From Mesorhizobium sp. (GTDB lineage: Bacteria; Pseudomonadota; Alphaproteobacteria; Rhizobiales; Rhizobiaceae): DNA of 54,739 nt. The stretch spans positions 1-54,739 of the forward strand of contig NZ_JANINM010000116.1 in NCBI RefSeq assembly GCF_024509055.1. The letters run 5' to 3'. Position numbers and translations under genes: made by a program. Below, piece by piece: positions 3,118 to 36,083 of this stretch. The notes beneath the pieces are model-generated. The model had not been told where the DNA came from and made no database searches. It saw nothing but the letters and a program-made list of their open reading frames with translations. How positions within the stretch are numbered: the first letter of the stretch is position 1; the number at the start of each line of letters is the position of its first letter.

Positions 3118-3201
3118 CGAGAGTGAGAGTGCAGACGGGTTTTGCCGTGACGGGTTGAGGGCTGGGAGAGAGGCTCCCGGCGCCCGTCGCGGAGAACCGC
3201 G
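3118..3201 (+). promoter_or_regulatory. structured leader A, upstream of ardC
   Basis: A purine-rich start (GAGAGTGAGAG, from about 3119) is followed by a two-level hairpin. The outer stem is CGTGACGGG (3146-3154) with CCCGTCGCG (3183-3191), nine pairs with one G-T. The inner stem is GCTGGGAG (3161-3168) with CTCCCGGC (3174-3181), loop AGAGG. The ribosome site GGAG begins at the last base of the outer stem. Leader B before the next gene has the same architecture with compensating changes. It may be a regulatory RNA or a single-stranded-DNA promoter. The preceding bases 3014-3117 hold no gene. Confidence 0.72.
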
Positions 3202-4173
3202 ATGTCCAGACACGATCGCACTTTAGGCGCCGACGGAAACCGGGCGAGCCTTTATGATGAAATCACCGGCAAGATCATCGCCGAGCTTGAGGCCGGGCGC
3301 TTCCCATGGGTCCAGCCCTGGAGCAAGGCCACGGCGAAAGCCCCGCTTGGCCTGCCGAAGAACGCCAGCACCGGACGCGCCTATAGCGGCATCAACATCC
3401 TGATCCTCTGGGGCGCCGTCGTGCAGCACGGCCATCCCGGTCAGGGTTGGCTCACTTATCGCCAAGCCGCCGCGCTCGGCGGCAATGTGCGCAAAGGCGA
3501 GCGCGGCATCACGGTCGTCTATGCCGACCGCTTCATCCCCGAGGACGAAAAGCGCCGTGCGCGCGAGACCGGCGAGGACGCTCAGGCCATTCCCTTCCTG
3601 AAGCGCTTCACCGTGTTCAACACGGCGCAATGCGAGGGCCTGCCCGAGGACATCACCGTCGCCGCGCCGCCTCCGCCGCCCGGCCTGATCGAGCCGAAGG
3701 TTGAAGCGCTCATCGACGCGACCGGAATCGACTTCCGCATCGGTGGCGACCGGGCCTTCTACATGCCCGCCCGCGACTACGTGGTCGTCCCGCCGCCGCA
3801 TGCTTATTTCGAGCCGATCAACTGGCACCGGACCGCGCTGCATGAGATCGGCCACGCCAGCGGACATCACAGCCGGCTCAACCGCGATCTGTCCGGTTCC
3901 TTCGGCACGAAGAAATATGCGTTCGAGGAACTGATCGCCGAGATGAGCGCCGCTTTCTGCTGCGCCTCGCTCGGCATCGTGCCGACCGTGCGTCACGCCG
4001 ACTATATCGGCTCGTGGCTGGAGGTGCTGCGCGAGGACAATCGCGCGATCGTCCGCGCCGCTTCGCAGGCCAGCAAGGCGGCCGACTGGATCTTGTCCTT
4101 CCTGCCGGAAGCCAGCGACGCCAATGACGCCGGCGACGTCGATGCCGCCGAGATCGACAGGAGGGCGGCATGA
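3202..4173 (+). CDS. ardC: ArdC-family antirestriction protein
   Basis: A 323-residue protein of the ArdC type. Members bind single-stranded DNA and protect incoming conjugative DNA from restriction in the recipient. The N-terminal half (about 15-150) matches the DUF1738 ssDNA-binding domain: SLYDEITGKIIAELEAG, FPWVQPW, GINILILW. The C-terminal half carries a zinc-metallopeptidase-like site, HEIGH at 214-218 with EELIAEMSA about 25 residues later. The ATG at 3202 has GGAG 7 bases upstream at the foot of leader A. Its presence beside parB and upstream of ssb is typical of a leading region. The protein looks full length. Confidence 0.95.
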   Translation: MSRHDRTLGADGNRASLYDEITGKIIAELEAGRFPWVQPWSKATAKAPLGLPKNASTGRAYSGINILILWGAVVQHGHPGQGWLTYRQAAALGGNVRKGERGITVVYADRFIPEDEKRRARETGEDAQAIPFLKRFTVFNTAQCEGLPEDITVAAPPPPPGLIEPKVEALIDATGIDFRIGGDRAFYMPARDYVVVPPPHAYFEPINWHRTALHEIGHASGHHSRLNRDLSGSFGTKKYAFEELIAEMSAAFCCASLGIVPTVRHADYIGSWLEVLREDNRAIVRAASQASKAADWILSFLPEASDANDAGDVDAAEIDRRAA

Positions 4174-4316
4174 TTGTCCCGCTATGCGCCATGCGGCTAC
4201 GAGGCGCGCGCGGTACTGCTCTCCGCGTTTGAGAGGGAGAGAGGGGCCGGGTTTTTCGTGACGGGTTGAATGGTTGAGAGAGTGGCTCTCGGCCGCCCGT
4301 CACGGAGTAACCTGCC
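4174..4316 (+). promoter_or_regulatory. structured leader B, upstream of the ParB-like gene
   Basis: From 4230 a GAGAGGGAGAGAG tract precedes a two-level hairpin. The outer stem CGTGACGGG (4257-4265) pairs perfectly with CCCGTCACG (4296-4304). The inner stem GGTTGAGAG (4272-4280) pairs with CTCTCGGCC (4286-4294), two G-T pairs, loop AGTGG. GGAG follows immediately at 4304-4307. The inner stem is GAGAG/CTCTC here but GGGAG/CTCCC in leader A, and the outer stem A-C pair here is replaced by G-T in A, which is covariation supporting a conserved fold. Confidence 0.75.
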
Positions 4317-6470
4317 ATGGCGAAAGCTGCCAAGAAGAAGCCCGCCCCCGCGATCATCGTCTTCTCCCGCGCACGGGACATTCCTTTCAACCGCATCAGG
4401 CTGTCCGAAAGCAATGTTCGCGAGACCGACGTCGAGGCCGGTCTGGACGAACTCACCCATGACATCAACCGTCGCGAGGATCTCGTGCAGGGTCTCAATG
4501 TCCGCGCCATCCTCGATGGCGACGGCAATGAAACGGGCGATTTCGAGACGCCGGCCGGCGGCCGCCGCTATCGGTCGATCGCGCGCCTCGTTGAGGCTGG
4601 CCGCTTCCCCGCCGATGGCCTCGTCCCCTGCATCGTCAAGAAGGCTGACGCCAAGACCACGGCGCTCGATGACTCGCTTGCCGAGAACACGTTCCGGCTT
4701 GCGTTGCATCCGCTCGACCAGTTCAAGGCGTTCAAGCGCATGGTCGACGGCGGTATGACAAAGGCCGAGGTCGCAAGCGCCTACTTCACCACGGAGCGCT
4801 ATGTCGATCAGCGTCTCGCGCTCGCCAAGGTCTCGCGCGCGCTTCACGAGGTCTATGCCACGAATGGCATGACGCTTGCGATGCTGGAGGCGTTCACTGC
4901 GCACCCGGATCATGCGCGCCAGGAGCAGGTCTGGGAGGCTGTCAGGCAGTCCCATTATCGCGAGCCCTGGCGCATCCGGAATATGCTGACCGAGACCAGC
5001 GTAGCGGCTTCCGATAAGCGCGCCCATTTCGTCGGCATCGACGCCTATCTGGCGGCCGGCGGCTCGCTGCTGCCGCGCTACCTCTTCGATGATGATGAGG
5101 ATGGCTGGCTGGAGGACGTGGCGCTTCTCGACCGACTCGTTGCCGAGAAGCTGAAGGCCGCCGCAGACGAGGTGGCCGCCGAGGGCTGGAAGTGGATCGC
5201 GGTCGATCTCGAACTTCCCTACGGCCACGACCACGGGCTGCGCGCGATCGCCGGCACGTTCACGGAGCTGACCAAGAAGGATCATCGGGAGCGCGAAAAG
5301 CTGCGCAAGGAGCAGGAACGCCTTGAGACCGAACACGCCGATTACGACGAGTTGCCGGACGAGATCGACCAGCGCCTCGGCGAGATCGAAAAGCAGCTCG
5401 ATGCTTTCGAGCGCCGGCCGGCCATCTACGATCCGGCTGAGATTGCTATCGCCGGCGTCTTCGTCAGCGTCGACGAAGATGGCGAGCTTATCGTCGATCG
5501 CGGCTGGATCCGGCCCGAGGACGAGCCGGGCGCGACCGTCGAAGGCGGCTCGCCGGACATGGAGGGCGATGACGTCGCTGGCGGGGCTAAGCCCGATGTG
5601 CAGCACGCCGTCATCACCGTCGGCGGTCGGCCCGTCGAGACGGACGAGGAAGAGGAGACGATCAAGCCTCTTCCCGAACGGCTCGTCGCCGAACTGACCG
5701 CTCATCGCACCGTGGCGCTGGCCGATGCCGTCGCCGCCAATCCGCATATCGCCATGACGGCGCTGCTGCACCGGTTGGTGCGCGACCGCTTCAAGCAATC
5801 CACCAGCGGCTCGGCCGTCCGGGTTTCCGTCCAGGAGGTGTATTTCCGCGAGCAGGGCATCGACCTCAAGGACAGCCCCTATGCAAAGTCGGTCGCCGAG
5901 CGGCACGCGGGATGGAAGGCGGACGTGCCCGCCGATCCCGATGCGCTCTGGGACTGGCTCGATGCGCTCGATGACGCCAGCCGCATGGCGCTGCTGGCGC
6001 ATTGCGTGTCGTTCGCGATCAACGCGCTCTATGAGCGGCCGAATCCCTTCAGCGCGACCGGCATCACCGAGCAGGGCTTGCGAGCCCGCATGGCGGAAGC
6101 CGGTCGGCTCGCCCGCGTCACCGGCCTCGACATGGCGGAGGCGGGTTTCAGGCCGACCGTCGTGAATTATCTCGGCCGCGTCACCAAGCCGCGCATCCTC
6201 GAAGCCGTCCACGAGGCGCTTGGCGAAGACAAGGTGCGCCTGATCGACCACCTCAAGAAGGACGACATGGCGCGCGAGGCCGAGCGTCTCCTGGCCGACA
6301 CCGGCTGGCTGCCGGAGCCGCTGCGCCTTCTCGCGGAGGAGCCGGCCGTCGATGCCTCGGACGACGCGCAGGCGGACGACGTGGCGCTGCCGGAGTTCCT
6401 CGTTGGCGACGACGACGCAGACGCGGCCGATGCGACCGGCGACCCGTCGGTTCTCGGCGCCGCCGAATGA
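4317..6470 (+). CDS. ParB/RepB/Spo0J-like nuclease-domain protein of the ICE leading region
   Basis: A 717-residue protein whose N-terminal part is ParB-like. IPFNRIRLSESNVRE starts the domain near residue 25, ETPAGGRRYRSI is the conserved GxRR-type loop near 80, and SLAENTFRLALHPLDQFKAF leads into the helix-turn-helix region around 120-190. The long C-terminal part, with an acidic coiled segment around 320-370, has no family I recognise. Large ParB-like proteins of this kind recur next to ardC in alphaproteobacterial ICEs and plasmids. It is far from the parA gene at 24.5 kb, so a role in segregation is not implied. A role in handling incoming DNA is as likely. Confidence 0.85.
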   Translation: MAKAAKKKPAPAIIVFSRARDIPFNRIRLSESNVRETDVEAGLDELTHDINRREDLVQGLNVRAILDGDGNETGDFETPAGGRRYRSIARLVEAGRFPADGLVPCIVKKADAKTTALDDSLAENTFRLALHPLDQFKAFKRMVDGGMTKAEVASAYFTTERYVDQRLALAKVSRALHEVYATNGMTLAMLEAFTAHPDHARQEQVWEAVRQSHYREPWRIRNMLTETSVAASDKRAHFVGIDAYLAAGGSLLPRYLFDDDEDGWLEDVALLDRLVAEKLKAAADEVAAEGWKWIAVDLELPYGHDHGLRAIAGTFTELTKKDHREREKLRKEQERLETEHADYDELPDEIDQRLGEIEKQLDAFERRPAIYDPAEIAIAGVFVSVDEDGELIVDRGWIRPEDEPGATVEGGSPDMEGDDVAGGAKPDVQHAVITVGGRPVETDEEEETIKPLPERLVAELTAHRTVALADAVAANPHIAMTALLHRLVRDRFKQSTSGSAVRVSVQEVYFREQGIDLKDSPYAKSVAERHAGWKADVPADPDALWDWLDALDDASRMALLAHCVSFAINALYERPNPFSATGITEQGLRARMAEAGRLARVTGLDMAEAGFRPTVVNYLGRVTKPRILEAVHEALGEDKVRLIDHLKKDDMAREAERLLADTGWLPEPLRLLAEEPAVDASDDAQADDVALPEFLVGDDDADAADATGDPSVLGAAE

Positions 6471-6481
6471 CGCGCATCACC

Positions 6482-6513
6482 TGGCCCGCCGTCGCGAGAC
6501 TGCGGGCCATTTT
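6482..6513 (+). terminator. hairpin with T-run between the ParB-like gene and the next gene
   Basis: TGGCCCGC (6482-6489) pairs perfectly with GCGGGCCA (6502-6509) over a 12-nt loop and is followed by TTTT. It lies 11 bases after the ParB-like stop and would act as terminator or attenuator before the small gene at 6531. Confidence 0.6.
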
Positions 6514-6530
6514 CGTTTCAGGAGAACATC

Positions 6531-6794
6531 ATGGCCATTCCCAATCCCGTTCGTACCAACTTCAACACGCTGCTGCGCGCCGCCGACGACGGCCATCTCG
6601 CACTCATGGAGTGCCTGGATGCCGTCACCCGCGAGCGTCGCTATGTCGTCTGCGCCGTGCGCCACGCGGACGACGGCGATTTCGTCATGACGCCGTTCGG
6701 CCATCTCGCGGACGGCAATCCTTACGACGCCTACCTGCCTCCCGATCCCGACGATCCAAACGGCTTCATCGAGAACACGGGAGACACATCATGA
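6531..6794 (+). CDS. DUF6117-like small protein
   Basis: An 87-residue protein starting MAIPNPVRTNFNTLLRAA, with ALMECLDA, RYVVCAV and FVMTPFGHLADGNPYDAYLPP. This pattern I associate with the DUF6117 family found downstream of parB-like genes in alphaproteobacterial mobile elements; the family number is from memory. The ribosome site is AGGAG at 6519-6523. Function is unknown. Its stop overlaps the ATG of the following short frame. Confidence 0.75.
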   Translation: MAIPNPVRTNFNTLLRAADDGHLALMECLDAVTRERRYVVCAVRHADDGDFVMTPFGHLADGNPYDAYLPPDPDDPNGFIENTGDTS

Positions 6795-6919
6795 TGACGG
6801 TCGATGAGATCTTCGCCGACGATCGCCGCTATCCTCCTGTGGAGCGTTCGCTTTCATGGGAGGAGACACGCGGCGGCTTCCCACCCAGCGAATTGTTGTC
6901 CGGGTGCGCTATCCACTAA
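6791..6919 (+). pseudogene. short frame, probably the 5' stump of an ICE gene cut by the defence island
   Basis: The 42-residue frame starting MMTVDEIFADDRRYPP begins on an ATG that overlaps the stop of the gene before it, so its start looks genuine and coupled. It then ends abruptly in a region of different composition. The ordinary backbone continues only after 11.9 kb. The likely reading is that the rest of the gene was lost or displaced when the Vsr/methyltransferase island was inserted. No family is recognised. Confidence 0.45.
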
Positions 6920-6932
6920 GGCAAGTTGCCTT
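6918..6932. repeat. perfect 15-nt inverted repeat at the island boundary
   Basis: AAGGCAA-G-TTGCCTT starts on the stop codon of the truncated frame and sits where backbone-like sequence gives way to the defence island. It could be a remnant of an insertion site or a simple hairpin. No matching copy was found at the right side of the island. Confidence 0.5.
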
Positions 6933-7121
6933 GGCTTTCAGGCGCAGAAAATCGCGGGAGATGGCAAAGGCGATCGCGCGGCTTGCAGCAGAGAGCTCTA
7001 GCGCCATCGACATCGGGATACGGAGATCGCGCTGCCACGACACATCTATCGCTGCCGGTCGCTTGGGATCACTGAACGTTTCGTCCTGCGGGAGGCGAAA
7101 TCGACGCCCGGCTGTCAATTT
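6933..7121. other. short unassigned stretch left of vsr
   Basis: Two overlapping frames of about 70-90 residues are open here on opposite strands. The minus-strand one would start on TTG four bases after the vsr stop, without a ribosome site. Neither resembles a known family, so neither is called. Confidence 0.3.
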
Positions 7122-7565
7122 CTAGTCGGGTCTAATCCAATTGTCCTTTTTGCCATCGCTGCCACGAATTTTCCTCAAAAGCGCTTCCAATTTCGAAATC
7201 TTTTTGACCTCGCATTCCCAGATCGTCAGACATTTCCATCCGTCCCTCACAAGAGCACGCCGGTGTCGATGATCACGCACTCTGTTCGTATCCACTTTCG
7301 CGAACCAATATGCGGAGTTCGACTTGACCCTCCGTTGGCCGTCGACGCATTTGGTGCACCCATGCCAAAAGCATCCGTGGACGAATATAGCGATTCGGCG
7401 CCCCGGCAGCACGATATCGGGTTTACCTGCCAGAGAAGCATCGTGTATGCGGTAACGGAGCCCGCGGCTGAATAGAAAGCGGCGCACGATGAGCTCGGGC
7501 TTTGTATCTTTCGATCGGATCGCCGCCATATTTCGGCTGCGCCGCTCCACCGATAATTTATCCAT
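7122..7565 (-). CDS. vsr: very short patch repair endonuclease
   Basis: A 147-residue Vsr endonuclease, the usual length. Vsr nicks T:G mismatches created by deamination of 5-methylcytosine at the sites of a partner cytosine methyltransferase. RSKDTKPEL (residue 17 on) and GKPDIVLPGRRIAIFVHGCF followed by WHGC carry the catalytic Asp and zinc-site Cys/His residues. It is divergent from the cytosine methyltransferase gene with a 144-base AT-rich gap between them, the expected pairing. In some defence clusters Vsr-like proteins have been proposed as the restriction nuclease. Confidence 0.93.
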   Translation of the reverse strand: MDKLSVERRSRNMAAIRSKDTKPELIVRRFLFSRGLRYRIHDASLAGKPDIVLPGRRIAIFVHGCFWHGCTKCVDGQRRVKSNSAYWFAKVDTNRVRDHRHRRALVRDGWKCLTIWECEVKKISKLEALLRKIRGSDGKKDNWIRPD

Positions 7566-7709
7566 TCAAAGTCGGGATCCCTGTGTCGACAAAGCACTGA
7601 TATTAATATACTTTTTACAGCATTGTTTCAAATTGCTCAAGAAAGTGATGCCGTATACTATTAGTTGCCGCGCAACTGACCGCACCCACCTTAGCGCGAG
7701 AGAAATCAT
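7566..7709. promoter_or_regulatory. divergent promoter region between vsr and the methyltransferase
   Basis: An unusually AT-rich 144-base gap. It contains the 10-bp palindrome ATATTAATAT (7600-7609), the hexamer TATACT (7654-7659) as a candidate rightward -10, and the inverted repeat GTTGC-CGC-GCAAC (7664-7676) just after it, which could be an operator. -35 boxes are not clear. Confidence 0.45.
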
Positions 7710-8759
7710 TTGGCGAAGAAGCCGTTCAACACTCGCAACGTGAGCAGGCGTATCGCGAGTAAAATAAGAGGCCGCGGTCTCCCCAAGATCGTTAGCCTTT
7801 TCTCGGGCGCCGGCGGCCTAGATCATGGATTCAAGGCTGCCGGGTTTAAGATCAGCGCTGCTTTTGATCTTTCACCGGCCGCAATTCTAACTCACAAGCG
7901 CAACTTCCCGCGCTCAACCTCGATCGCTGGAGACCTAAGGCTCCTCAAACCAGCCGGTGTTGCTGCCGTTGTTCGCGCAAGCATTCCCGATGGAGATAGA
8001 ATCGGGATCATCGGTGGACCACCATGCCAAGGCTTTTCCCGCGCAAATACGACAGCAGAAGCCGCCGATCCCAGAAACAAACTTCCAGCGCTCTACATCG
8101 AAATTGTACGCGAACTTCAGAAATTTTTCGAGGTTGAGTTCGTTGTTTTTGAAAACGTTCTCGGCATGAGGGACAAAAAGCATGCTGACGCTTATAAGGG
8201 TCTGCTCTCAGGTCTGCGGAATCGTGGCTTCGAGATCACCGAAAAAGAGTTGTGCGCGACGGAGTTTGGTGTACCGCAGACGCGCAAGCGAATAATTCTC
8301 TCTGCGATGCGCAAGGGCATGGGTTACGGCGCAATCCGGCCACGCCGACGAAAAGGCAAATCGAATGTAAAGGAAGCGATAAGCGACTTGCCACCTCCCA
8401 TCTACTTCGCACGGGATCTTACCGCAGAAAATATTCCATTTCATCCCAATCACTGGACCATGAATCCAGTGTCGCCACGCTTCGGAAGCGACATGCGTAG
8501 CAATGGTGGCCGCTGCTTCAAACGGCTTGATTGGAACAAGCCGAGCCCAACGATAGCGTTCGGCCACAGAGAGATTCACGTGCATCCAAACGGATTACGA
8601 CGCCTTAGCATCTTCGAGGCGATGCGTTTGCAAGGTTTCCCAGACGATTTTGTGCTGGAAGGCAATCTGTCCGAGCAAGTTGAGCAAATTTCAAATGCCG
8701 TTCCGCCTCCTGTTGCCAAGAGCGTCGCAAACGCAATTCGACGAACGCTGGCGGGTTGA
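7710..8759 (+). CDS. DNA (cytosine-5) methyltransferase
   Basis: A 349-residue C5 methyltransferase with all core motifs in order: SLFSGAGGLDHGF (I, SAM binding), GGPPCQGFS (IV, catalytic Cys), VFENV (VI), QTRKR (VIII), a short target-recognition region, RLSIFEAMRLQGFPDDF (IX) and QISNAVPPPVAKSV (X). The start is uncertain. TTG at 7710 is the longest frame with a weak GAGAGA site, and a GTG at 7740 is also possible. With Vsr it makes a methylation/repair pair. With the two genes downstream, which it overlaps or abuts, it forms a predicted restriction-like operon. Recognition sequence unknown. Confidence 0.93.
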   Translation: MAKKPFNTRNVSRRIASKIRGRGLPKIVSLFSGAGGLDHGFKAAGFKISAAFDLSPAAILTHKRNFPRSTSIAGDLRLLKPAGVAAVVRASIPDGDRIGIIGGPPCQGFSRANTTAEAADPRNKLPALYIEIVRELQKFFEVEFVVFENVLGMRDKKHADAYKGLLSGLRNRGFEITEKELCATEFGVPQTRKRIILSAMRKGMGYGAIRPRRRKGKSNVKEAISDLPPPIYFARDLTAENIPFHPNHWTMNPVSPRFGSDMRSNGGRCFKRLDWNKPSPTIAFGHREIHVHPNGLRRLSIFEAMRLQGFPDDFVLEGNLSEQVEQISNAVPPPVAKSVANAIRRTLAG

Positions 8760-8761
8760 AA

Positions 8762-10735
8762 ATGGCCCCGTCTATCTTAGAGCAAAAGGAGCCCGTCGAG
8801 AATGAACTCGTCGCGAAAATCAAGCAGAGCGAGAATCGCGACGTTCTGATTCAAACAACTCTTCAAACCAATGAACAAGTAATCGCGCGCGTCACAGACG
8901 GTATATACCGTCAGCCGGCGTCGGCTTTGAGAGAATTGATTTCAAACGCATACGATGCAGACGCGACACGAGTAACCATCAAGACAGATGCTCCACGCTT
9001 CGAGCAAATTACGATCGAGGACGATGGCGCAGGTATGTCGCCCGAAGTTCTTGCTCATCTTCTTTATAACATCGGTGGGAGTGCCAAACGCAATCGTGAA
9101 GGCGAGCAGCTCGGGATTACCTCAAGGAATGATAGCACCCGAAGTCCGGGCGGACGGCAGTTAATCGGCAAGATCGGTATCGGCCTATTTTCGGTGTCTC
9201 AGCTAACCCACTCGTTCCAGATCGTAACGAAGACGAAGGGGGACAACCATAGAACTGTCGCAACTGTTTCGTTGAGGCAGTTCTCTGACTCCGCAACGAG
9301 CGATTCTGAAGACACTAGTAAATTCGAATCCGGCAAAGTCACCATATGGCGCGAACGGGCTACGGATAAAGACCGTCATGGCACAACCATCGCGCTCACA
9401 AAAATTCGGCCGCAGGCCCGCGATACGCTGCGTAGTCGGGAAATTTGGGATGCTATCGAGCGGAATGAAGAAACCGCGGATGAAGATGAAAAGCAAGCAA
9501 TTGAGCCGCCGCGCTTCCACATCGGAAGAGTCGATAGCACCGGTCGTCTCCTTAAAAAGACAGGTAAATCTTATTCTGACCTCCCCTGGCTCAAGGCTGA
9601 CAAGCCCGGTGAAGCGTTCGAGAAGCTAGTCAACGCTGTTTGGAATCAGCTCGATGAGGCTAATCCAAATCCGAAATTGGAGAGGATTTTCGACTATTAT
9701 CTACGAATGGTTTGGCAGCTCGCCCTTGCGGTGCCACTGCCTTACGTCGACGGTCATCTGTTTGATATGCCGACAGGCGGATGGGCGAAGACATTCGAAT
9801 TGTCGAATAAACGGCGTGGCACGGCCGAGCTAGTAAAGGTGCGCCAGGAGACTAAGATCCGTGACGCGCTATCGTTAACTGATCCGCCTAAATCAATTGG
9901 GAAGTTCGCTGTCATCATTGATGATTTGAAACTTGCTCGTCCAGTGCGTTTCAAGAATTTGCCGACAACCGACCATGCGTTGAAGCATCCGCTTGTTTTC
10001 GTCGGCAAATGCAGTGAAAGCTTTGAAAAGCTGCCGCCAGAGCTGAGCGGCGGTCCTTTGAGATTTGAAGCATATCTCTTTTGGTCGCCAAAGATTGCTC
10101 CAAGCGAACACCAAGGTGCGCTCGTGCGCATTCATGGGGCGAGCGGCACCCTCTATGACCCCACGTTCATGCGGTATCAAGTTGCTGAGTTAACGCGTCT
10201 ACGTCAGATCACCTGCGAAATATTGGTGAGCGAAGGCTTGGAGAGTGCCCTCAACATCGATCGCGAGGCTTTCAACAACGCGCATCCTCATGCGGTATTT
10301 ATCACTCGCTGGCTGCATTCTGCACTTAGGCAGCTTGCTACAGTTCAGAAGAAAGAGGCTGCCGCTGTCCGATCCCAAAAGCGGGAGATTTCCAAGGACG
10401 AACAGACCGGGGCGATACAGAAGATCGTCGTCGAGGCTTGGGCTAAGCAGACTAAGGATCCAGCGTCAATTCCACCGGCTGTTCAAATCGTAGACGAAGA
10501 AAAGGCATTCAAGAAGACGTCGGGTTCCTATGTATTCCGAAGATCGGCTGTCACCGACAAGAAAGATCCGCCGAAAACTCCCAAGGAGAAAGCGCGGAGA
10601 GAGATCGTCGAGGAAAAACTGAAGGCAATCACTCAGATTCTAGCTGCCTTCAATGTTTTGGATCGCATAACCAAACCGGAACAAGAAGAACTACTCCTTG
10701 CGATCAGCAAAGTCCTGGAAGAGCGAGAAGAATGA
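8762..10735 (+). CDS. GHKL (Hsp90/MutL/MORC-like) ATPase of a restriction-like operon
   Basis: A 657-residue protein with a GHKL ATP-binding fold at its N-terminus: RELISNAYDADA (N box, about 58-69), DDGAGM (G1, about 87-92) and GKIGIGLFSVS (G2, about 136-146). The middle and C-terminal parts contain a second alpha/beta region and a basic coiled segment. ATG at 8762 is chosen; the longer frame would begin on TTG at 8756. It follows the methyltransferase stop by two bases. GHKL ATPases of the MutL/MORC group have been described in bacterial operons with cytosine methyltransferase and Vsr and were predicted to drive a restriction reaction. That function here is inference. Confidence 0.85.
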   Translation: MAPSILEQKEPVENELVAKIKQSENRDVLIQTTLQTNEQVIARVTDGIYRQPASALRELISNAYDADATRVTIKTDAPRFEQITIEDDGAGMSPEVLAHLLYNIGGSAKRNREGEQLGITSRNDSTRSPGGRQLIGKIGIGLFSVSQLTHSFQIVTKTKGDNHRTVATVSLRQFSDSATSDSEDTSKFESGKVTIWRERATDKDRHGTTIALTKIRPQARDTLRSREIWDAIERNEETADEDEKQAIEPPRFHIGRVDSTGRLLKKTGKSYSDLPWLKADKPGEAFEKLVNAVWNQLDEANPNPKLERIFDYYLRMVWQLALAVPLPYVDGHLFDMPTGGWAKTFELSNKRRGTAELVKVRQETKIRDALSLTDPPKSIGKFAVIIDDLKLARPVRFKNLPTTDHALKHPLVFVGKCSESFEKLPPELSGGPLRFEAYLFWSPKIAPSEHQGALVRIHGASGTLYDPTFMRYQVAELTRLRQITCEILVSEGLESALNIDREAFNNAHPHAVFITRWLHSALRQLATVQKKEAAAVRSQKREISKDEQTGAIQKIVVEAWAKQTKDPASIPPAVQIVDEEKAFKKTSGSYVFRRSAVTDKKDPPKTPKEKARREIVEEKLKAITQILAAFNVLDRITKPEQEELLLAISKVLEEREE

Positions 10736-11925
10736 GCGGCAAAGTCTCTACATCTGAAAAAATTGCAAGGAACGCAGACAGCGAAGACTTAACAGACGAT
10801 ATTGTTAGCGTCTCCGGCTACGCGTTTTCCGTGCCGCCGAAGAAAGAATTTAAGCCTTGGCACAGGCCACGAAAGCAGTTTGTTCGTAACGATCAATGGC
10901 TTTTCTACGTCACTGAACTCGTTAGTGAACGATCTCCTTTCGATGGTCCTTTAACCTACTTCGGTCTGCCCGGCGCTGACTTGCTCGATATTCGCTTTTT
11001 CGACAAGATGGTATGCGACCAAAACAATGTTAAGTTGCGCTTCCTTGGTTTCGACCTTGGTGCCGCCCCAGATAGCGAAACTGCCTCGGAATTCATTATA
11101 TCGCGTGACGAGGTAAGCAAGCTGGCGTCGATCGATCCACAATCCGACGTTATCGCTCACGACATACGCGAGCTGTCCAATGAAGACTCAATTGCCTGGC
11201 AGAAAACGCTGGAGTACGGCCCGTACGACGTCGTGAACCTCGACCTTTGCGATGGAATCACCAAAGAAGAAGGCGGCAACATCAACGACACATATTACAA
11301 CGCGGTATCTCGACTTCTTACTGTTCAATCTCGTCGCAAGTCGCCATGGTTGTTGTTCCTTACAACTCGGGTCGGCAAGCGCCACATCCATGATGATGCA
11401 CTTGAGAAGCTGTGTCGCCTTTATCTGAAGAATCTTGCCGACTGCGCTCCCTTCCGTGAGCAGTCTAAAGCGAAATTCAGTATAGAAAACGAAACAGGGT
11501 TCGATCTAGCTAAATCGGATGACCAAGGACTCCAGCGTATCGTCTTGACCGGGCTCTGCAAATGGCTGCTTGGTCTAACACTAGGACAGCAGCCTCCCAC
11601 CGTAATGGAGGTAAAGAGTTTGTTTGGCTATCGCGTCAGGCAGGGCGCGTCAGCAGAAGACATGGTTTCGATAGCCATTCGGTTCCAGCCCACACATGTG
11701 CCACCAAACGATCCAATTCAGCTTGCCGTGGCTAAAGCAGCCGCACCTGACGAGTGCGTACTCGCCGAAAAAGCGGCTGTTCGTGTCAGCACTTTGGTTG
11801 ACGTGGACGACGTGTTGGCGTCGGATCCTAACGTGAGGAGCGAGATGACCGAGGCGATGTGCTCGCTATTGGAGTCCGCGCGTTATGATATTAATGCATA
11901 TCGCAAATGGGCAGCAACCGCGTAG
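10732..11925 (+). CDS. unknown protein coupled to the GHKL ATPase, Rossmann-like
   Basis: A 397-residue protein whose ATG overlaps the GHKL stop (ATGA), so it is part of the same operon. No family is recognised. Residues about 75-210 show five hydrophobic strands in an order reminiscent of a SAM-dependent methyltransferase: LTYFGLPGADLLDI, LRFLGFDLG with acid at the strand end, DVIAHDIREL, YDVVNLDLCDGI, SPWLLFLTTR. The usual glycine-rich SAM loop is not clear. It may be a degenerate methyltransferase fold used for DNA or nucleotide recognition. The C-terminal 150 residues are helical. Base composition resembles the rest of the island, lower in GC than the flanking backbone. Confidence 0.7.
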   Translation: MSGKVSTSEKIARNADSEDLTDDIVSVSGYAFSVPPKKEFKPWHRPRKQFVRNDQWLFYVTELVSERSPFDGPLTYFGLPGADLLDIRFFDKMVCDQNNVKLRFLGFDLGAAPDSETASEFIISRDEVSKLASIDPQSDVIAHDIRELSNEDSIAWQKTLEYGPYDVVNLDLCDGITKEEGGNINDTYYNAVSRLLTVQSRRKSPWLLFLTTRVGKRHIHDDALEKLCRLYLKNLADCAPFREQSKAKFSIENETGFDLAKSDDQGLQRIVLTGLCKWLLGLTLGQQPPTVMEVKSLFGYRVRQGASAEDMVSIAIRFQPTHVPPNDPIQLAVAKAAAPDECVLAEKAAVRVSTLVDVDDVLASDPNVRSEMTEAMCSLLESARYDINAYRKWAATA

Positions 11926-12223
11926 CTTGCGAATTCGCGCGTCGAAGAATGGCGGCCGGGCAAATTATTGCTGATTGCGATTGCAACAAATGCATGAAGC
12001 CTTGATTGATGCGGCGGATATAGCCTGATCGGATCGACGGTTATATCGCCCAGTAGCCTATCGATTGGGTTTCACAAGCGTCCCGTCTCTTGGCGGAGCG
12101 TTTTTTCCATGCCCGTCCACTTCACCTTGAGAGGGAGAGCGCCGCCGGGACGGGTTTGAGCCGTTGCGGTCGAGAGAGAGCGCCGCGTGGCTTCATCCCG
12201 TCCAGCTCTCCCGAGGCATTCCC
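11926..12223 (+). promoter_or_regulatory. structured leader C, upstream of the strawberry-notch gene
   Basis: The first 200 bases hold no gene and include the right edge of the defence island. From 12130 a leader like A and B begins: GAGAGGGAGAG. GGGAGAGC (12133-12140) pairs perfectly with GCTCTCCC (12205-12212). GGACGGG (12148-12154) pairs with CCCGTCC (12197-12203). Inside, GAGCC (12158-12162) can pair with GGCTT (12189-12193) and GCGG (12166-12169) with CCGC (12183-12186). GAGG (12213-12216) just after the outermost stem is the ribosome site for the ATG at 12224. The order of elements matches leaders A and B while the sequence has changed on both arms. Confidence 0.7.
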
Positions 12224-15200
12224 ATGAACACGATCTCCGCAGCCGCGCACGCCGCGGCGTCGCTTCCGCTCGTCTCCGCTTCCAATACGTCCGCATCGGT
12301 CTTCGCCGCCGCGCAGTTCCTTCTTCCGCATCTCGAACGCGGCCGGCGCGTCGACGCCGCCACGTTGCGCGGCGCGATGCAATCCGCCTTCGGCGCGTCC
12401 GACACCACTGGCGCCTGGGACTGGAAAACCGCCTACGACGCCTGCGAGGTCCCGACCGTCCTCATGCTGCGCAAATACGGAAAGCCGCTTTTCCGCAAAG
12501 CCGGTTCTCCGGCGTCGATCCTGCCGCAGTTTTCCAAGATCACCGGCCTGATGCCGACGCACACGCGCCGGTCCGAAGAAGCGCAGACCTTCCAGCAGTT
12601 CTCGACCCCGATCCCGCTTGGCCTGGCGGCTTCGACCGCGGCGGCGATCACAGCGGCAGACCGCGTATTGGAGCCATCGGCCGGCACCGGCCTTCTCGCC
12701 ATCCTGGCCGAGATCGCCGGCGGGACGCTCCTGCTCAACGAGCTTGCCGAAACCCGCGCCGATCTTCTGTCCCTCCTCTTTCCGGCCTTGTCCGTCACGC
12801 GCTTCGACGCCGCGCAGATCGACGATCACCTCGATCCGGCGCTGGTTCCGACCGTGGTGCTCATGAACCCGCCATTCTCCGCCATGGCGAATGTCGAGGG
12901 TCGGATGGCCGATGCCGCCTTCCGCCATGTCACCTCGGCGCTGGCGCGCTTGGCGCCCGGCGGCCGGCTCGTGGCGATCACCGGCGCGAACTTCGCCCCG
13001 GACGCACCGGCCTGGACCTCAGCTTATACCCGTCTGCAGGAACGCGGCCGCATCGTCTTCTCCGCCGCGATCGACGGTTCGGTTTACGCGAAGCACGGCA
13101 CGACGTTCCCGACGCGGCTCACCGTCATCGACAAGCTGCCTGCCGACGATCCGTCTGTCTTTCCCGCCGCACCGGGCGTCGCGCCAGACGTGGCGACGCT
13201 GCTCCGTTGGCTCGCCGAGCATCTCCCGGCACGCCTGCCGATCGACCCTGCGATCGCCGTGCCGGTCGCCGCGTCTGCCGCGCCCCGGACCGTGCGCGCC
13301 TACATCAACCGGGCGGCCAGGGCCGCGCCGACTGTGGCGCATAGCGAACCGCAGGGCGCTCCGCTCGCCTATGAAACCGTCGACTGGAAGCCCGCCGAGG
13401 CCGGGCGTCTGTCCGACGCGATCTATGAGGAATACGGACTCCAAGCCATCCGGATCTCCGGCGCGGCGGCACATCCGACCCGGCTAGTGCAGTCGGCGGC
13501 GATGGCGAGCGTCGCTCCGCCGAAGCCGAGCTATCGGCCGGTGCTGCCGGCGAACGTCCTCGGCCTCCTGTCCGACGCGCAACTCGAAACCGTGATCTAT
13601 GCCGGCGAGGCGCATTCCGATTTCCTCGCCGGCGCGTGGACCGTCGATGAGACGCTCGACAAGCTGACCGCTGCGGCCGAGGACGCCAAGGGCGCCGTTC
13701 GCCTTCGCCAGGGCTTCATGATCGGCGACGGCACCGGCGTCGGCAAGGGCCGGGAATCCGCTGCCATCATTCTCGACAACTGGCTTCAGGGACGCCGCAA
13801 GGCCGTCTGGATCTCGAAGTCGGACAAGCTGATCGAGGACGCGCAGCGCGATTGGGGCGCGCTCGGCATGGAGCGCCTGCTGGTCACGCCGCTGTCGCGT
13901 TTCCCGCAGGGCAAGCCGATCGCGCTGAACGAGGGCATCCTATTTTTAACCTACGCCACGCTGCGCTCCGACGATCGCGGAGAAAGGGTTTCGCGGGTCA
14001 AGCAAATCCTCGAATGGTTGGGCTCCGACTTTAACGGAGTGATCGTTTTCGACGAGGCGCACGCCATGCAGAACGCTGTCGGCGGCAAGGGAGAACGCGG
14101 CGATGTCGCCGCCTCGCAGCAGGGCCGCGCCGGCCTGCGCATCCAGCACGCGCTTCCGAACGCGCGCGTGGTCTATGTCTCCGCCACCGGCGCAACCACT
14201 GTCCACAATCTCGCCTATGCACTGCGGCTCGGATTGTGGGGCGGCGAGGATTTCCCCTTCGCCACGCGCCCCGAGTTTGTCGAGGCGATCGAGGCCGGCG
14301 GCGTCGCGGCGATGGAAGTGCTCGCCCGCGATCTTCGTGCGCTCGGCCTCTACACCGCGCGCTCGCTCAGTTTCGCCGGCGTCGAATATGAGCTGGTCGA
14401 GCACGAGCTGACGCCGGAGCAGGCCCGCATCTACGATGCCTATGCCGGCGCCTTCGCCATCATCCACAACAATCTGGATGCCGCGATGCAGGCCGCCAAC
14501 ATCACCGGCGGCGGCGAAGGCGGCTCCGGCACGCTGAACAGGCAGGCGAAATCCGCCGCCCGCTCGGCGTTCGAAAGCGCCAAGCAGCGCTTCTTCGGTC
14601 ATCTGCTCACCAGCATGAAGACGCCGACCTTGCTGCGCTCGATCGCCGCCGATCTGGAGGCGGGCCATTCGGCCGTCATCCAGATCGTGTCGACCGGCGA
14701 AGCGCTGATGGAACGGCGGCTGGCCGAACTGCCGACGGAGGAATGGGGCGACGTCCGCGTCGACATCACGCCGCGCGAATATGTCCTCGATTATCTCGCC
14801 CATTCCTTCCCCGTCCAGCTCTACGAGCCGTTCACGGATTCAGAGGGCAACCTGTCGTCACGCCCCGTCTATCGTAACGGCCAGCCGGTCGAAAGCCGCG
14901 AGGCCGTCGCCCGCCGCGATACGCTGATCGCCAAGCTCGCCAGCCTGCCGCCGGTGCCCGGTGCGCTCGACCAGCTCGTCCAGCATTTCGGCACGGACAC
15001 GGTTGCCGAGGTAACGGGCCGCTCGCGGCGCATCGTGCGCAAGCGCGGCGGCAGCGTCACCATCGACCGGCTCGTCGTCGAGACGCGCGCCGGGGCCGCC
15101 AATCTCGCGGAGACGCAGGCGTTCATGGACGACGCCAAGCGTGTACTCGTGTTCTCGGATGCCGGAGGCACCGGCCGCAGCTACCATGCGGAGAAGTCGG

Positions 15201-16577
15201 CGAAGAACACGCGGCTGCGCGTCCACTATCTGCTCGAGGCCGGCTGGAAGGCGGACACCGCCATTCAGGGCCTCGGCCGCACGCACCGCACCAACCAGGC
15301 GCAGCCGCCGCTGTTCCGGCCGATCTCGACCAACGTGAAGGCGGAGAAGCGATTCCTCAGCACGATCGCCCGCCGTCTCGACACGCTGGGCGCGATCACG
15401 CGCGGCCAGCGCCAGACCGGCGGTCAGGGTCTGTTTCGGCCGGAGGACAATCTGGAATCCCACTATGCCCGCGGTGCGCTTCGCCAGCTCTATCTCCTGC
15501 TGGTGCGCGGAAAGGTCGAGGGTTGCTCGCTCGACCGCTTCGAGCAGTCCACCGGACTGAAGCTGATGGACTCGAACGGCATCAAGGACGACCTGCCGCC
15601 GATCACCACGTTCCTCAACCGGCTGCTCGCCCTCACCATCGAGCTTCAGGGCATCCTCTTCACGGCCTTCGAGCAACTCTTGACCGCCCGCATCGAGGGC
15701 GCGATTGCATCGGGCACCTATGATGCCGGGCTGGAGACGCTGCGCGCGGAGAGCTTCGTCGTCGTCGATCGAAAGACGATCTACACGCATCCGCGCACCG
15801 GTGCGGAAATCAGCCTGCTCACGATCACCGAGCGCAGGCGCAATCGGCCGGTGGCGCTCGACGCCGCTTTGGCCGAACTCAATGACGCGCGCGCGATGCT
15901 GCTCGACAACGAGCGCTCGGGCCGCGCGGCCGTGCAGATCCCCGCCAGCAGCGTGATGCTCGACGATGGCGAGATCGAACGTCGCATCCGCTTGATCCGC
16001 CCGATGGAGGCGCACAACGTCCCGGTCAGGATGTTGGGCGAAACCCATTGGGTCGAGGCCGACAGGGATGTGTTCGCCTCGGCCTGGAATGCCGAGATCG
16101 CCGACGTGCCGGAGTTCTCCGACTCCACGCTGCACATGGTGACGGGCTTGCTCCTGCCGATCTGGAAGCGGTTGCCGAACGAGTCGACGCGCGTCTATCG
16201 GCTCCAGACCGACGAAGGCGAACGGATCATCGGCCGCAAGGTTTCGCCGGCCTGGGCCGCGAATGCGACCACGACCGGCACGGCCTCGATCACACCCGAC
16301 GACGCCTTCACGGCGCTGATGGATGGCCGGACGATCTTCGATCTCGCCCGAGGGACTTCAGCTTCGTCGTATCCGCGTGATGGGCGCCAACCGCATCGAA
16401 CTGTCGGGTTTCGACGACACGATGCGCAAGCGCCTCACGGCTTATGGCCTGTTCCATGAGATCATCTCGTGGAAACTTCGCATGTTCGTCCCGATCGACG
16501 CGAACGGACCGATCGTGCTCGGCAAGGTGCTCGACCGATGGCCGGTCGCACGCATCGGCGAGCGGGAGGCGGCGTGA
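12224..16577 (+). pseudogene. strawberry-notch-like methylase/helicase, one-base frameshift near the 3' end
   Basis: About 1450 residues. The N-terminal part is a class I methyltransferase fold: RVLEPSAGTGLLAILAE (about 147) and VVLMNPPFS (about 213), the signature of an adenine-N6 enzyme. The second half is an SF2 helicase of the strawberry-notch type: GDGTGVGKGR Walker A (about 500), VIVFDEAHAM (about 607), VYVSATGAT, and a helicase C part with GRTHRTNQ. The reading frame breaks at the CCC run 16347-16349. Upstream frame ends at 16459 with an unrelated tail, while GLQLRRIRVMGANRIELSGF and onward continue in another frame to TGA at 16577. Removing one C restores a continuous protein, and the restored stop overlaps the next ATG as TGATG. 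This may be a real mutation or a sequencing error. Confidence 0.88.
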
Positions 16578-28442: not shown

Positions 28443-28685
28443 CTCGCGTGATAGCGTTTCGCATCTTCTCGTGCGCTGGCGTGTCATGGCGAGCGCCACG
28501 GGTGGAGGCAGGCACACCAACCGAAGCAGGGCAGGATAAAAGCGCGCACGGTGCGCTTCGGTCGGGCGGTTGTTGTTGTTCATGTTTTTGGCGCGTTCCG
28601 CACCGTGCAGCGCTCTCGCGCACCGTGCGCTCCGCGCCCATCTTCCTGTTTTCCTTTTCTGTTTTGCACCGTGCGGGGCCGCGTC
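28443..28685 (+). other. candidate oriT / relaxase promoter region with four GCACSGTGC repeats
   Basis: The gap between transglycosylase and relaxase carries four near-palindromes: GCGCACGGTGCGC (28544-28556), GCACCGTGC (28600-28608), GCGCACCGTGCGC (28618-28630, the exact reverse complement of the first) and GCACCGTGC (28666-28674). Between them are pyrimidine/T-rich stretches, unusual in this GC-rich context (28567-28590 and 28641-28665). Repeats of this kind next to a relaxase gene suit relaxosome-protein binding or autoregulation, and the nic site may be here. Frames through this region are ignored because the relaxase family start is at 28686. Confidence 0.6.
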
Positions 28686-30425
28686 ATGGCCGATGAGCGC
28701 GAGTTTCGCGTTCGACCGGGACGCATCCGATCGACCCGCGCCCAGCAGGCCCGGCCCTTCATCGCGCAGGCGCTGGCGGCGGCGAAGAAAGCCGGTGGGG
28801 GTATCTCGCGATCCGGCCGGGTCGTGTCCGGCAATCGCTCCCGCTTTGGGCGTGGCCAGCGCGCCAGCATCCAGGCCAACCGCCTCATCACTTCCCGCAC
28901 GCGCGGCGCTGTCGTGAAAGCTCGCGTCGTGCGGCATACGGCGCGGTCCGCGCCGCTCGGCAGGCATCTCGATTATCTGCGCCGCGACGGCGTGACTCGC
29001 GACGGAGAAAAGGCGCGGCTGTTCGGGCCGGAAACGGAGAATGCCGATGGCCGCTCCTTCGCCGAACGGTGTGAAGGCGACCGGCATCATTTCCGGTTCA
29101 TCATCTCCCCCGACGACGCCCCCGAGATGGTGGACCTGAAGCAGTTCACCCGCGATCTCGTCGGGCAGATGGAAAAGGATCTCGGCACCAGGCTTGACTG
29201 GGTGGCGGTCGATCACTGGAACACCGAGCATCCGCATGTCCATCTGATCGTGCGCGGCGTCCGCGATGACGGCCATGACCTCGTAATCTCCCGCGACTAC
29301 ATCAAGGAGGGGATGCGTGATCGGGCGCGTGATCTCATCACGCAAGAACTCGGGCTTCGCTCCGATTTCGACATTCACCGGACACTCGAAAGCCAGATCG
29401 AGGCCGAGCGCTGGACGCAGCTTGACCGGCAGCTTGTCCGCGACGCCGGCAAGGCCGGAATCATCGACCTCGCCCCACACCCGGACCGGCAGCCCGACGA
29501 GTTTCATGCGCTGAAGGTCGGTCGGCTACGGACCCTCGAAATCCTCGGTGTCGCCGGGCAGGTCGGGCATCAGCAATGGTTCATCAGGCCGGAGGCCGAG
29601 AGCGTATTGCGCGAACTCGGTGAGCGCGGCGACATCATCAAGCGCATGCACCGCGCGCTGACCGAACGCGGCATCGAACGCGGTTCGGCCAACTACGTCC
29701 TCGCCGGTGAAAGCCTCGATGTTCCCGTCATCGGTCGCCTGATTGAGCGCGGCCTGGATGACGAGCTGAGGGGCACGGCCTACGCCGTGGTCGATGGCGT
29801 CGATGGCCGCACCCATCACATCAAGCTGCCGCATCTCGACGCTGCCGGAGACAGCCTGCCCGGCTCGATTGTTGAACTGCGCGCCTATGAGGATTCGCGG
29901 GGAGAGCGCCGTGTCGCGCTCGCTGTCCGTTCCGACCTCGACGTGCAGGCGCAAGTCATCGCAACGGGCGCGACCTGGCTTGACCGACAGGCCGTCGCTC
30001 GCGCGCCGATCGCGCTTTCGGAAGGCGGCTTCGGCTCCGAGGTGCGTCAGGCGATGAATGAGCGCGCCGAACGCTTGATCGGCGAAAGTCTGGCCGAGCG
30101 TCAAGGCGACCGCGTCGCCTTCGCGCGCCGGCTGCTCAACACCTTGCGCGATCGGGAACTGAATGCGCTCGGGGAGAGGCTCGCGGCCGAAAACGGCTTG
30201 CCGTTCACTCGTGCTGGCTCAGGCGAATATGTCGCCGGCTCCTATCGCCAGCGCTTCACGCTCGCCTCCGGCCGCTTCGCCATGATCGACGACGGCCTCG
30301 GCTTCCAGCTCGTGCCCTGGTCGCCCTCCCTTGAAAAGCAACTCGGCCGCCACGTTTCCGGCGTCGCGCGTGATGATGGCGGCGTCGATTGGGATTTCGG
30401 CCGCAAGCGGGGGCTCGGCCTTTAG
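28686..30425 (+). CDS. VirD2-type relaxase with DUF3363 domain
   Basis: A 579-residue relaxase. It would cut one strand at oriT, stay attached through a Tyr and pilot the strand into the recipient. After a basic, Gly/Arg-rich N-terminus, RHTARSAPLGRHLDYLRRDG, FRFIISPDDA and the metal-binding HxH in WNTEHPHVHLIVRG (about 175-188) define the nuclease domain. The DUF3363 region follows from about 250. ATG 28686 gives the family-like beginning MADEREFRVRPGRIRS; the ribosome site is weak (GCGGGG). It corresponds to RlxS of rhizobial ICEs. traG follows after 15 bases. Confidence 0.93.
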   Translation: MADEREFRVRPGRIRSTRAQQARPFIAQALAAAKKAGGGISRSGRVVSGNRSRFGRGQRASIQANRLITSRTRGAVVKARVVRHTARSAPLGRHLDYLRRDGVTRDGEKARLFGPETENADGRSFAERCEGDRHHFRFIISPDDAPEMVDLKQFTRDLVGQMEKDLGTRLDWVAVDHWNTEHPHVHLIVRGVRDDGHDLVISRDYIKEGMRDRARDLITQELGLRSDFDIHRTLESQIEAERWTQLDRQLVRDAGKAGIIDLAPHPDRQPDEFHALKVGRLRTLEILGVAGQVGHQQWFIRPEAESVLRELGERGDIIKRMHRALTERGIERGSANYVLAGESLDVPVIGRLIERGLDDELRGTAYAVVDGVDGRTHHIKLPHLDAAGDSLPGSIVELRAYEDSRGERRVALAVRSDLDVQAQVIATGATWLDRQAVARAPIALSEGGFGSEVRQAMNERAERLIGESLAERQGDRVAFARRLLNTLRDRELNALGERLAAENGLPFTRAGSGEYVAGSYRQRFTLASGRFAMIDDGLGFQLVPWSPSLEKQLGRHVSGVARDDGGVDWDFGRKRGLGL

Positions 30426-35499: not shown

Positions 35500-36083
35500 T
35501 CTTGAGCCCGTCTGTAGCGCAGATCGTGGACATCCTGATCGGCGCGGGGTTTAAGACCCTGCCGACTCCCTTCAAGGTGGGTAGTATTCCGTTCGAGTTT
35601 GCTGCGATGCTAGTTGGCACGGACAAGGCACCTGACCTCGTCGTCATCATCGACACCGTGACTGAGAAAGAGGAGCGCGCTCGACAGAAAATTGGCGGAT
35701 TGGGTCGCGCGCTTGATGCAGTGCAATCGCGTCGGCCCGTGACTGCCATTATCACAGGACCGACTCCCGGCGAGCAGACGCTGGAGTCTATCTCGAAGGT
35801 TTGTCGCGTTCTGCCGGTCGGTACACCTACCGGACCGTCAGACGACAGCCTCTTGCGCGACTGGTTAGCAGTTCTATTGCCGTTGAAGGTGCCTGATACA
35901 TCGGCGGTAGCAGCAGATCCACTAATCAACTTGCGCAATCAAACGGATGAATTGGGAGCGCTCATAGTGGGCGCGGCACCACGTGGTGCGCGCGCTGTCC
36001 AGGACGTCCTACGCAAGCGTTTGGAAACGCCGCTCAAAGCGGCCATTGCGACGCTGTCGGACAGCGACGGGGATTTAATATGA
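35496..36083 (+). CDS. middle protein of the Lamassu-type operon (LmuC-like)
   Basis: A 195-residue protein overlapped at both ends by ATGA. No catalytic motif is certain. The segment FEFAAMLVGTDKAPDLVVII followed by DTVTEKEERARQKIGGLGRA and SRRPVTAIITGP resembles the core of a restriction-endonuclease-like fold but lacks an obvious E-x-K. In Lamassu systems the small middle protein (LmuC, DdmB) joins the SMC dimer and the effector into one complex. Assignment rests on position, size and the identity of the flanking genes. Confidence 0.65.
   Translation: MILSPSVAQIVDILIGAGFKTLPTPFKVGSIPFEFAAMLVGTDKAPDLVVIIDTVTEKEERARQKIGGLGRALDAVQSRRPVTAIITGPTPGEQTLESISKVCRVLPVGTPTGPSDDSLLRDWLAVLLPLKVPDTSAVAADPLINLRNQTDELGALIVGAAPRGARAVQDVLRKRLETPLKAAIATLSDSDGDLI

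Follow-up and report, generated by a model that had tools for sequence, protein, structure and literature searches.

Two families of hairpin leaders in alphaproteobacterial conjugative elements, preceding anti-restriction and other genes

Structured elements shared by the establishment genes of conjugative elements are already known. In the pLS20 family of Bacillus plasmids, EGeRS1, a region of 400 to 600 bp with multiple inverted repeats, is a conserved feature upstream of ardC and further establishment operons of the same element; the accessible text of that report considers a single-stranded promoter highly unlikely and leaves RNA or DNA action unresolved (PMC8708921). Frpo/ssi promoters are described, in the available excerpt of their source, as secondary-structure elements before leading-region anti-defence genes (PMC11541004). 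Among Rfam families, the radC motif (RF01754) is listed as a proteobacterial candidate structured RNA, and STAXI (RF01728), for which single-stranded DNA was considered possible, lies near SSB, topoisomerase, antirestriction and integrase genes, according to the accessible sections of its description (PMC2864571). The DNA analysed here, a 54,739-nt stretch of Mesorhizobium sp. (contig NZ_JANINM010000116.1) referred to as the window, is a conjugative element by its gene content. Three of its genes, ardC, a parB-like gene and the gene of a strawberry-notch type helicase, are preceded by hairpin leaders, designated A, B and C, which fall into two families, type I (A and B) and type II (C). What is new in these leaders is strand-resolved evidence for RNA. 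None of the titles and abstract openings listed from the open-licence literature reports them.

The leaders resemble EGeRS1, as the accessible text presents it, in that a structured element is repeated before ardC and other establishment genes of one conjugative element. The labels "establishment" and "leading region" for the leader genes are presumptive, drawn from gene content and from orientation toward the transfer module. In contrast to EGeRS1, the leaders span 85 and 99 model positions, well outside its size range, occur in Alphaproteobacteria, and show covariation that points to the coding strand; the two are set apart by published description rather than by comparison of sequences. STAXI has similar gene surroundings, but its repeated pseudoknots, listed for Enterobacteriales in the sections available, are unlike the leaders. 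The earlier note on this DNA had raised a possible relation to a known Rfam leader near antirestriction genes, for which the scans gave no support. At gathering score, Rfam matches a tRNA at the edge of the window and nothing at the leaders, and even at E<=5 around A/B and C neither radC nor STAXI is among the matches. The overlaps that do occur lie far below threshold (flg-Rhizobiales on A, 15.5 bits with a gathering score of 55; mir-636 on C, 20.2 bits with a gathering score of 99). Six relatives scanned at gathering score gave two tRNAs and one alphaproteobacterial small RNA, ar35 (57.6 bits), which lies on the minus strand about 1.3 kb upstream of an ardC leader (L003:6761-6897).

Two leader families and the genes behind them

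Leaders A, B and C stand where the earlier note had placed them, each with a GA tract, a hairpin and a ribosome site at its foot. The note had also proposed that all three follow one plan. The plan is indeed similar, since in both families a GA tract precedes a long hairpin that is GA-rich near its apex and has the ribosome site at its foot, but a single common fold does not hold: the type I covariance model, R1, scores C at 15.7 bits (E 0.023), hardly above the next chance-like match at 15.0 bits (E 0.038). Between A and B, the inner stem changes on both sides (GGGAG/CTCCC versus GAGAG/CTCTC), as claimed. The claimed difference in one outer pair is better stated as U.G in A (3148/3189) and U-A in B (4259/4302). 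The additional stem of C, GGGAGAGC/GCTCTCCC, is possible in the window copy; across relatives its tract side changes without compensation. RNA folding z-scores, each from 200 dinucleotide shuffles, are -3.97 for A, -5.27 for B and -2.35 for C, for which 5 of the 200 shuffles fold as well as the native sequence. The GA tract alone has 10 matches in the window at <=1 mismatch, a number equalled in 8 of 100 shuffles and thus not significant. The significance of the leaders rests on comparative data and not on this count.

With the parB-like protein as query, 80 loci were found in genomes and metagenome-assembled genomes titled alphaproteobacterial, except one titled Proteobacteria only. In 53 loci that were printed, a leader is visible before the parB-like gene in all but L041, where it is masked; the printed stretch of L066 is shifted. 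Pattern searches yielded 174 type I leaders, 92 of them distinct, and 69 of the 92 were aligned to build R1 (85 positions). The type II model, R2 (99 positions), was built from 22 leaders, after a first type II alignment, in which the right arms were misaligned and RNAalifold gave a poor fold, had been replaced by a smaller one. Within the parB-oriented loci, R1 has 290 matches at E<=1 in 81 sources, 289 of them on the coding strand; the sole match on the opposite strand has an E of 0.58, and by our own reading of the table L071 is the only source without a match at that threshold. R2, searched in 43 of the 81 sources, has 57 matches at E<=0.001, all 57 on the coding strand. The window's leaders score 91.4 bits (A, R1, E 1e-22), 83 bits (B, R1, E 1.9e-20) and 96.6 bits (C, R2, E 8.8e-20), each being a row of the model that finds it.

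Outside these loci the leaders are found in a minority of genomes. R1 matches 21 of 289 sampled genomes of the window's class (E<=0.01) and 30 of 349 genomes in a phylum-wide draw (E<=0.001), counts that both include the window's own genome, come from overlapping samples and, at stricter filters, lose weak matches. Every R1 match of the phylum draw belongs to the window's class by its recorded kinship, the classes of the non-matching genomes not being listed. In the window's own genome R1 finds A and B only. R2 matches 5 of 142 class genomes at E<=0.01, again with the window's own included, and at E<=0.05 it matches 19 of 40 and 4 of 7 among the 47 further genomes that carry type I leaders by R1, a few of these R2 matches being weak and some possibly type I leaders, which R2 can weakly match. 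Leader A alone matches 150 of 72,556 plasmid records at E<=1e-3 and none of 50,697 phage records. Two IMG/VR contigs (L174 and L175) carry the exact type I pattern and may be conjugative elements filed as viral.

The genes behind the leaders are unrelated to one another, as the earlier note had claimed for three of them. Regular expressions placed 269 leaders, 180 of type I and 89 of type II, upstream of nine protein clusters of 68, 61, 51, 48, 16, 12, 10, 2 and 1 members, with no BLASTP links between clusters at 1e-5. Further genomes added 99 hits, 6 of them without an open frame. In this extended set each of the eight larger clusters has a single leader type. Type I precedes the parB-like (96 members), ArdC (69), ~185-aa (48), ~400-aa (16) and ~128-aa (10) families, and type II precedes the helicase (81), ArdB/KlcA (18) and DUF6878 (17) families; the remaining leader genes form six small clusters of one or two. 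The clusters take their names from Pfam matches in one or two members: ArdcN/MPTase-PolyVal, AAA_34/Helicase_C_4, DUF6878 (PF21798) and, for one member of the ArdB/KlcA cluster, Antirestrict (PF03230). The copy tested of the ~400-aa family has no Pfam match; from its sequence we presume a resemblance to DUF932. One protein behind a type II leader (L164) looks RadC-like by eye, again presumably. A subset of parB leaders (e.g. L022:9919-10003) appears by eye to hold the GA tract inside the loop of an extra upstream GC-rich inverted repeat (GCGCTGCCCTC...GAGGGCGGCGC).

Covariation and the strand that folds

The earlier note had argued for selection on a folded single strand, a view to be given up if a multi-element alignment lacked covariation or reflected common descent only. 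Paired changes in that alignment bear the view out. In a MAFFT alignment of 69 type I sequences, 98.0% of the 1171 cells are paired and both partners have changed in 9 of 17 pairs; with the partner slid, 39.5-47.8% are paired. In 150 model-aligned sequences (147 distinct), an alignment that is fitted to the model and so leans toward it, 97.3% of cells pair and 12 of 17 pairs have changed on both sides. Type II, likewise aligned by fitting to its model, has 88.0% paired cells, 15 of 22 pairs changed on both sides, and slid controls of 36.5-52.2%. Significance was assessed against a tree-based null, our own implementation in the manner of R-scape, with 100 simulations each, and was reassessed on more diverse sequences after a weak first test. 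When 112 type I sequences of <90% identity are tested, each of the top six among 3403 column pairs is a proposed base pair, and 5 of the 17 proposed pairs are significant when the test is restricted to them. The helices covary also on a tree of the parB-like coding sequence from which the leaders were excluded (29 of 32 loci): it carries 9.0 changes from one Watson-Crick pair to another, in 5 pairs, against 0, 0, 0 and 1 in four slid controls, where fewer cells pair initially. Compensatory changes of the kind expected of a structured cis-regulatory RNA therefore support the fold, more weakly in the first all-pairs test.

What appears as a G.U wobble on one strand becomes an A.C mismatch on its complement, and the ratio of the two therefore tells which strand folds. 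The 112 non-redundant type I leaders contain 279 G.U and 22 A.C cells, besides 35 other unpaired cells, and events that start from Watson-Crick pairs number 100.6 to G.U versus 18.3 to A.C. The parB-like gene tree gives 17.8 G.U versus 2.5 A.C events. Where both sides of a pair vary, 167 G.U were observed versus 234.8 expected, and 20 A.C versus 87.8. Type II has 140 G.U versus 25 A.C cells and 78 other mismatches in 39 sequences, counts taken without background control. For type I the parB-like gene supplied the mutational background: at 125 fourfold sites, compared across 46 loci, T>C is favoured over A>G, and C>T over G>A. With the two ribosome-site pairs excluded, 63 of 71 single-step events from GC pairs lead to G.U where 77% is expected, a modest excess (p 0.0085). 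From AU pairs, 21 of 30 such events lead to G.U where 27% is expected (p 1.5e-6), opposite to the background. The AU pairs are the decisive part of the wobble evidence. By this measure the fold is specific to the coding strand, with the background control covering type I, and the comparisons constitute good evidence, of a sequence-based kind, that the coding strand is the one that folds.

Four points weigh against selection on a folded coding strand. The background preference for C>T explains most of the wobble excess in GC pairs. One inner pair (columns 56-83 of A5) behaves in the opposite way, with 10 A.C versus 3 G.U. When all column pairs are tested, only 1 of 3403 is significant with 69 sequences and only 2 of 3403 with 112. 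Finally, the seed patterns require CGG...CCG and GGAG in type I, and GAGAG and GCTCT in type II, so that constancy at these places is partly by construction.

The same counts bear on the proposal that the leaders are double-stranded DNA operators, long dyads bound by an element-encoded repressor, in which paired changes keep the symmetry of the DNA. The arms are well conserved and each copy lies upstream of a gene, as such operators would be, and in the p576 clade of pLS20-family plasmids establishment genes are known to be under the control of a repressor, according to the accessible text of the EGeRS1 report (PMC8708921). DNA symmetry, however, predicts equal numbers of G.U and A.C, contrary to the counts. 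Moreover, some arm positions vary freely through compensation, unlike a sequence that is read: at type I columns 51-88, C-G, G-C, U.G and U-A are all seen. An operator of this type is accordingly improbable.

The earlier note had left two options, a cis-regulatory RNA or a single-stranded promoter used on the entering strand, and the wobble asymmetry favours the first. In promoters of the Frpo/ssi type, a hairpin on the entering template strand would recruit RNA polymerase before second-strand synthesis. The leaders share several traits with such promoters: the hairpins are stable, anti-restriction genes are included, and the window's ardC, parB-like and helicase genes are all oriented toward the relaxase/transfer module, an arrangement that fits if the transfer origin lies there. 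Folding of the coding strand, however, favours RNA over a promoter on the template strand, where the tolerated wobbles would be A.C mismatches, and if the template strand is the transferred one the required hairpin is disfavoured. A ribosome site built into the helix is likewise at odds with a promoter. Frpo/ssi promoters, as far as the available excerpt describes them, also need promoter hexamers, and a -35/-10 pair (<=2 mismatches per hexamer, either strand, only sigma-70-type hexamers being tried) occurs inside the leader in 1 of 147 type I and 1 of 86 distinct type II alignment rows, the latter including 4 type I leaders. A single-stranded promoter, at least a sigma-70-like one, therefore seems a poor candidate, with little probability left to it. 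A lone -35-like hexamer with one mismatch is commoner, lying on the plus strand in 21 of 147 type I and 5 of 86 type II rows.

Other transcription signals were sought near the leaders. In the 60 nt 5' of the tract, none of 269 leaders has a TATAAT-like hexamer (<=1 mismatch), and no consensus -10 adjoins. Between adjacent leader genes (37 cases <300 nt apart) the median gap from stop codon to next tract is 69 nt, the tract starts being approximate. An intrinsic terminator or attenuator was rejected, a U-run 3' of the hairpin (TTTT in the last 25 nt) being present in only 1 of 147 and 1 of 86 rows.

The ribosome site, the type II segment and possible control

In type I the outer helix ends with two pairs that contain the first two G of GGAG (A1 columns 83 and 84, each paired in 68 of 69 sequences). 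The openness predicted for GGAG is 0.012 in leader A and 0.042 in leader B. The position of the ribosome site suggests control of translation. In type II, the segment GCUCUC, 5' of the ribosome site, is complementary to the apical loop GAGAGC. Loop and tail were compared in 80 rows (90 matches minus 4 taken as type I and 6 duplicates): true partners score 17.48 versus 16.85 for shuffled ones, a value that 0 of 500 shuffles reach, although such shuffles ignore relatedness. Joint changes of loop and tail are seen, for instance, in L144, where 10 pairs match, and in L024, with 9. Pairing of the tract with GCUCUC as the conserved type II partner was rejected in the same kind of test, which again ignores relatedness (16.34 versus 16.22, with 145 of 500 shuffles as high). 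The apical loop and GCUCUC thus appear to covary in most, not all, type II copies. Because GCUCUC follows a stem of ~22 pairs without a linker, a simple pseudoknot within one molecule is unlikely, and the pairing would more likely belong to an alternative or intermolecular state.

The reading preferred here, which we hold to be probable, is that two related hairpin-leader families, in which the sense strand folds, most likely as mRNA, would gate the translation of their downstream genes jointly through a shared factor. The leader would be transcribed as part of the mRNA. In type I the outer helix, which holds the first two G of GGAG, would limit ribosome access; the constant GAGAG tract and the GA apical loop could be where a common protein or small RNA makes contact; and in type II GCUCUC may pair with the loop GAGAGC in an alternative or intermolecular state. 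An arriving element would then release its anti-restriction and DNA-handling proteins together and afterwards shut them down. A more specific proposal, post-transcriptional zygotic induction, is tentative: an element-wide regulator, present in the donor and absent from a fresh recipient, would recognise the GA tract and the apical GA loop in two leader architectures that evolved together, and would silence an anti-restriction regulon until entry, with the type II pairing of loop and GCUCUC as the switch.

Some observations fit joint control less well. Mean GGAG openness is 0.215 in 145 type I leaders versus 0.263 at 200 control sites (p 0.0075), a small difference measured against other candidate sites of the same loci, which were not verified as genes. 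Among the type II leaders, 11 of 80 have a loop-tail score <=13, and in L149 the tail has changed while the loop has not. The arrangement of a GA tract 5' of a stable hairpin is reminiscent of a ribosome standby site or an S1 site. That likeness and the modest occlusion of the ribosome site would suit a passive 5' structure, either an mRNA-stabilising hairpin or a standby site kept gene by gene with no regulator. The conserved sequence of loop and tract, the existence of two leader types that each keep to particular gene clusters, and the loop-tail covariation of type II suggest more than a stabiliser, however. We regard it as rather unlikely, and retain joint gating as the preferred reading.

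The element and the meaning of its leaders

The features of the window are collected in Table 1. Besides the genes listed there, the element carries toprim, SSB, RepA, ParA, a TraG-type coupling protein and trb-type secretion genes. Its gene order is similar to that of Tn4371-like elements, as given in the accessible part of their description (PMC2789088), a resemblance rather than a test.

Table 1. Leaders and principal genes of the window; some leader positions were counted by hand from the printed sequence.
Feature	Position	Strand	Details
Large serine recombinase	11-1678	minus	
Leader A (type I) of ardC	3119..3204	+	GA tract 3119-3129; two-level hairpin; loop AGAGG 3169-3173; ribosome site GGAG 3191-3194; ATG 3202
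Leader A hairpin	3145..3192	+	outer helix 3145-3154/3183-3192; inner helix 3162-3168/3174-3180
ardC	3202..4173	+	ArdcN + MPTase-PolyVal (Pfam)
Leader B (type I) of parB-like gene	4231..4319	+	tract 4231-4241; loop AGTGG 4281-4285; GGAG 4304-4307; ATG 4317
Leader B hairpin	4256..4305	+	outer helix 4256-4265/4296-4305; inner helix 4274-4280/4286-4292
parB-like gene	4317..6470	+	717 aa
Leader C (type II) of strawberry-notch helicase gene	12129..12226	+	tract 12129-12139; GGACGGG 12148-12154 with CCCGTCC 12197-12203; GAGG 12213-12216; ATG 12224
Leader C apical GA loop	12170..12182	+	TCGAGAGAGAGCG
Leader C GCTCTC segment	12205..12210	+	directly 5' of ribosome site
Strawberry-notch type helicase gene	12224..16459	+	AAA_34, Helicase_C_4 (Pfam)
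DUF3363 relaxase	28551-30425		

The product of the window's parB-like gene has no Pfam match and three weak NCBIfam matches (nucleoid occlusion, plasmid partitioning and ParB), each under its own cut-off. A parB-like frame in another locus (L064:3727-6246) has a C-terminal TrbI domain, not seen in the window copy, and may be a fusion or a rearrangement. Between leaders B and C, at 7122-11925, lies a restriction-modification-like cluster (Vsr nuclease, cytosine methylase, HATPase/REase-like protein and an unknown protein). It appears to truncate a small open reading frame at ~6792-6919 that continues in L044 and L049. The stretch between B and C contains no leader by R1 (E<1) or R2 (E<=0.001). 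At 33769-38512, between the TraG-type gene and the trb genes, are genes for a SIR2-domain protein, an unknown protein and an SMC-like ATPase matching Lamassu LmuB, likely a Lamassu-type defence cluster carried by the element.

The literature searched offers no explanation for the timing of anti-restriction genes in alphaproteobacterial conjugative elements. To this question the analysis contributes two searchable RNA models and a list of genes that includes two unrelated anti-restriction families. The leaders also flag candidate anti-defence or establishment genes, namely the ~185-, ~400- and ~128-aa families, DUF6878 and the helicase. Because the wobble test indicates which strand folds, the level at which these genes would be controlled, RNA or entering DNA, becomes directly testable.

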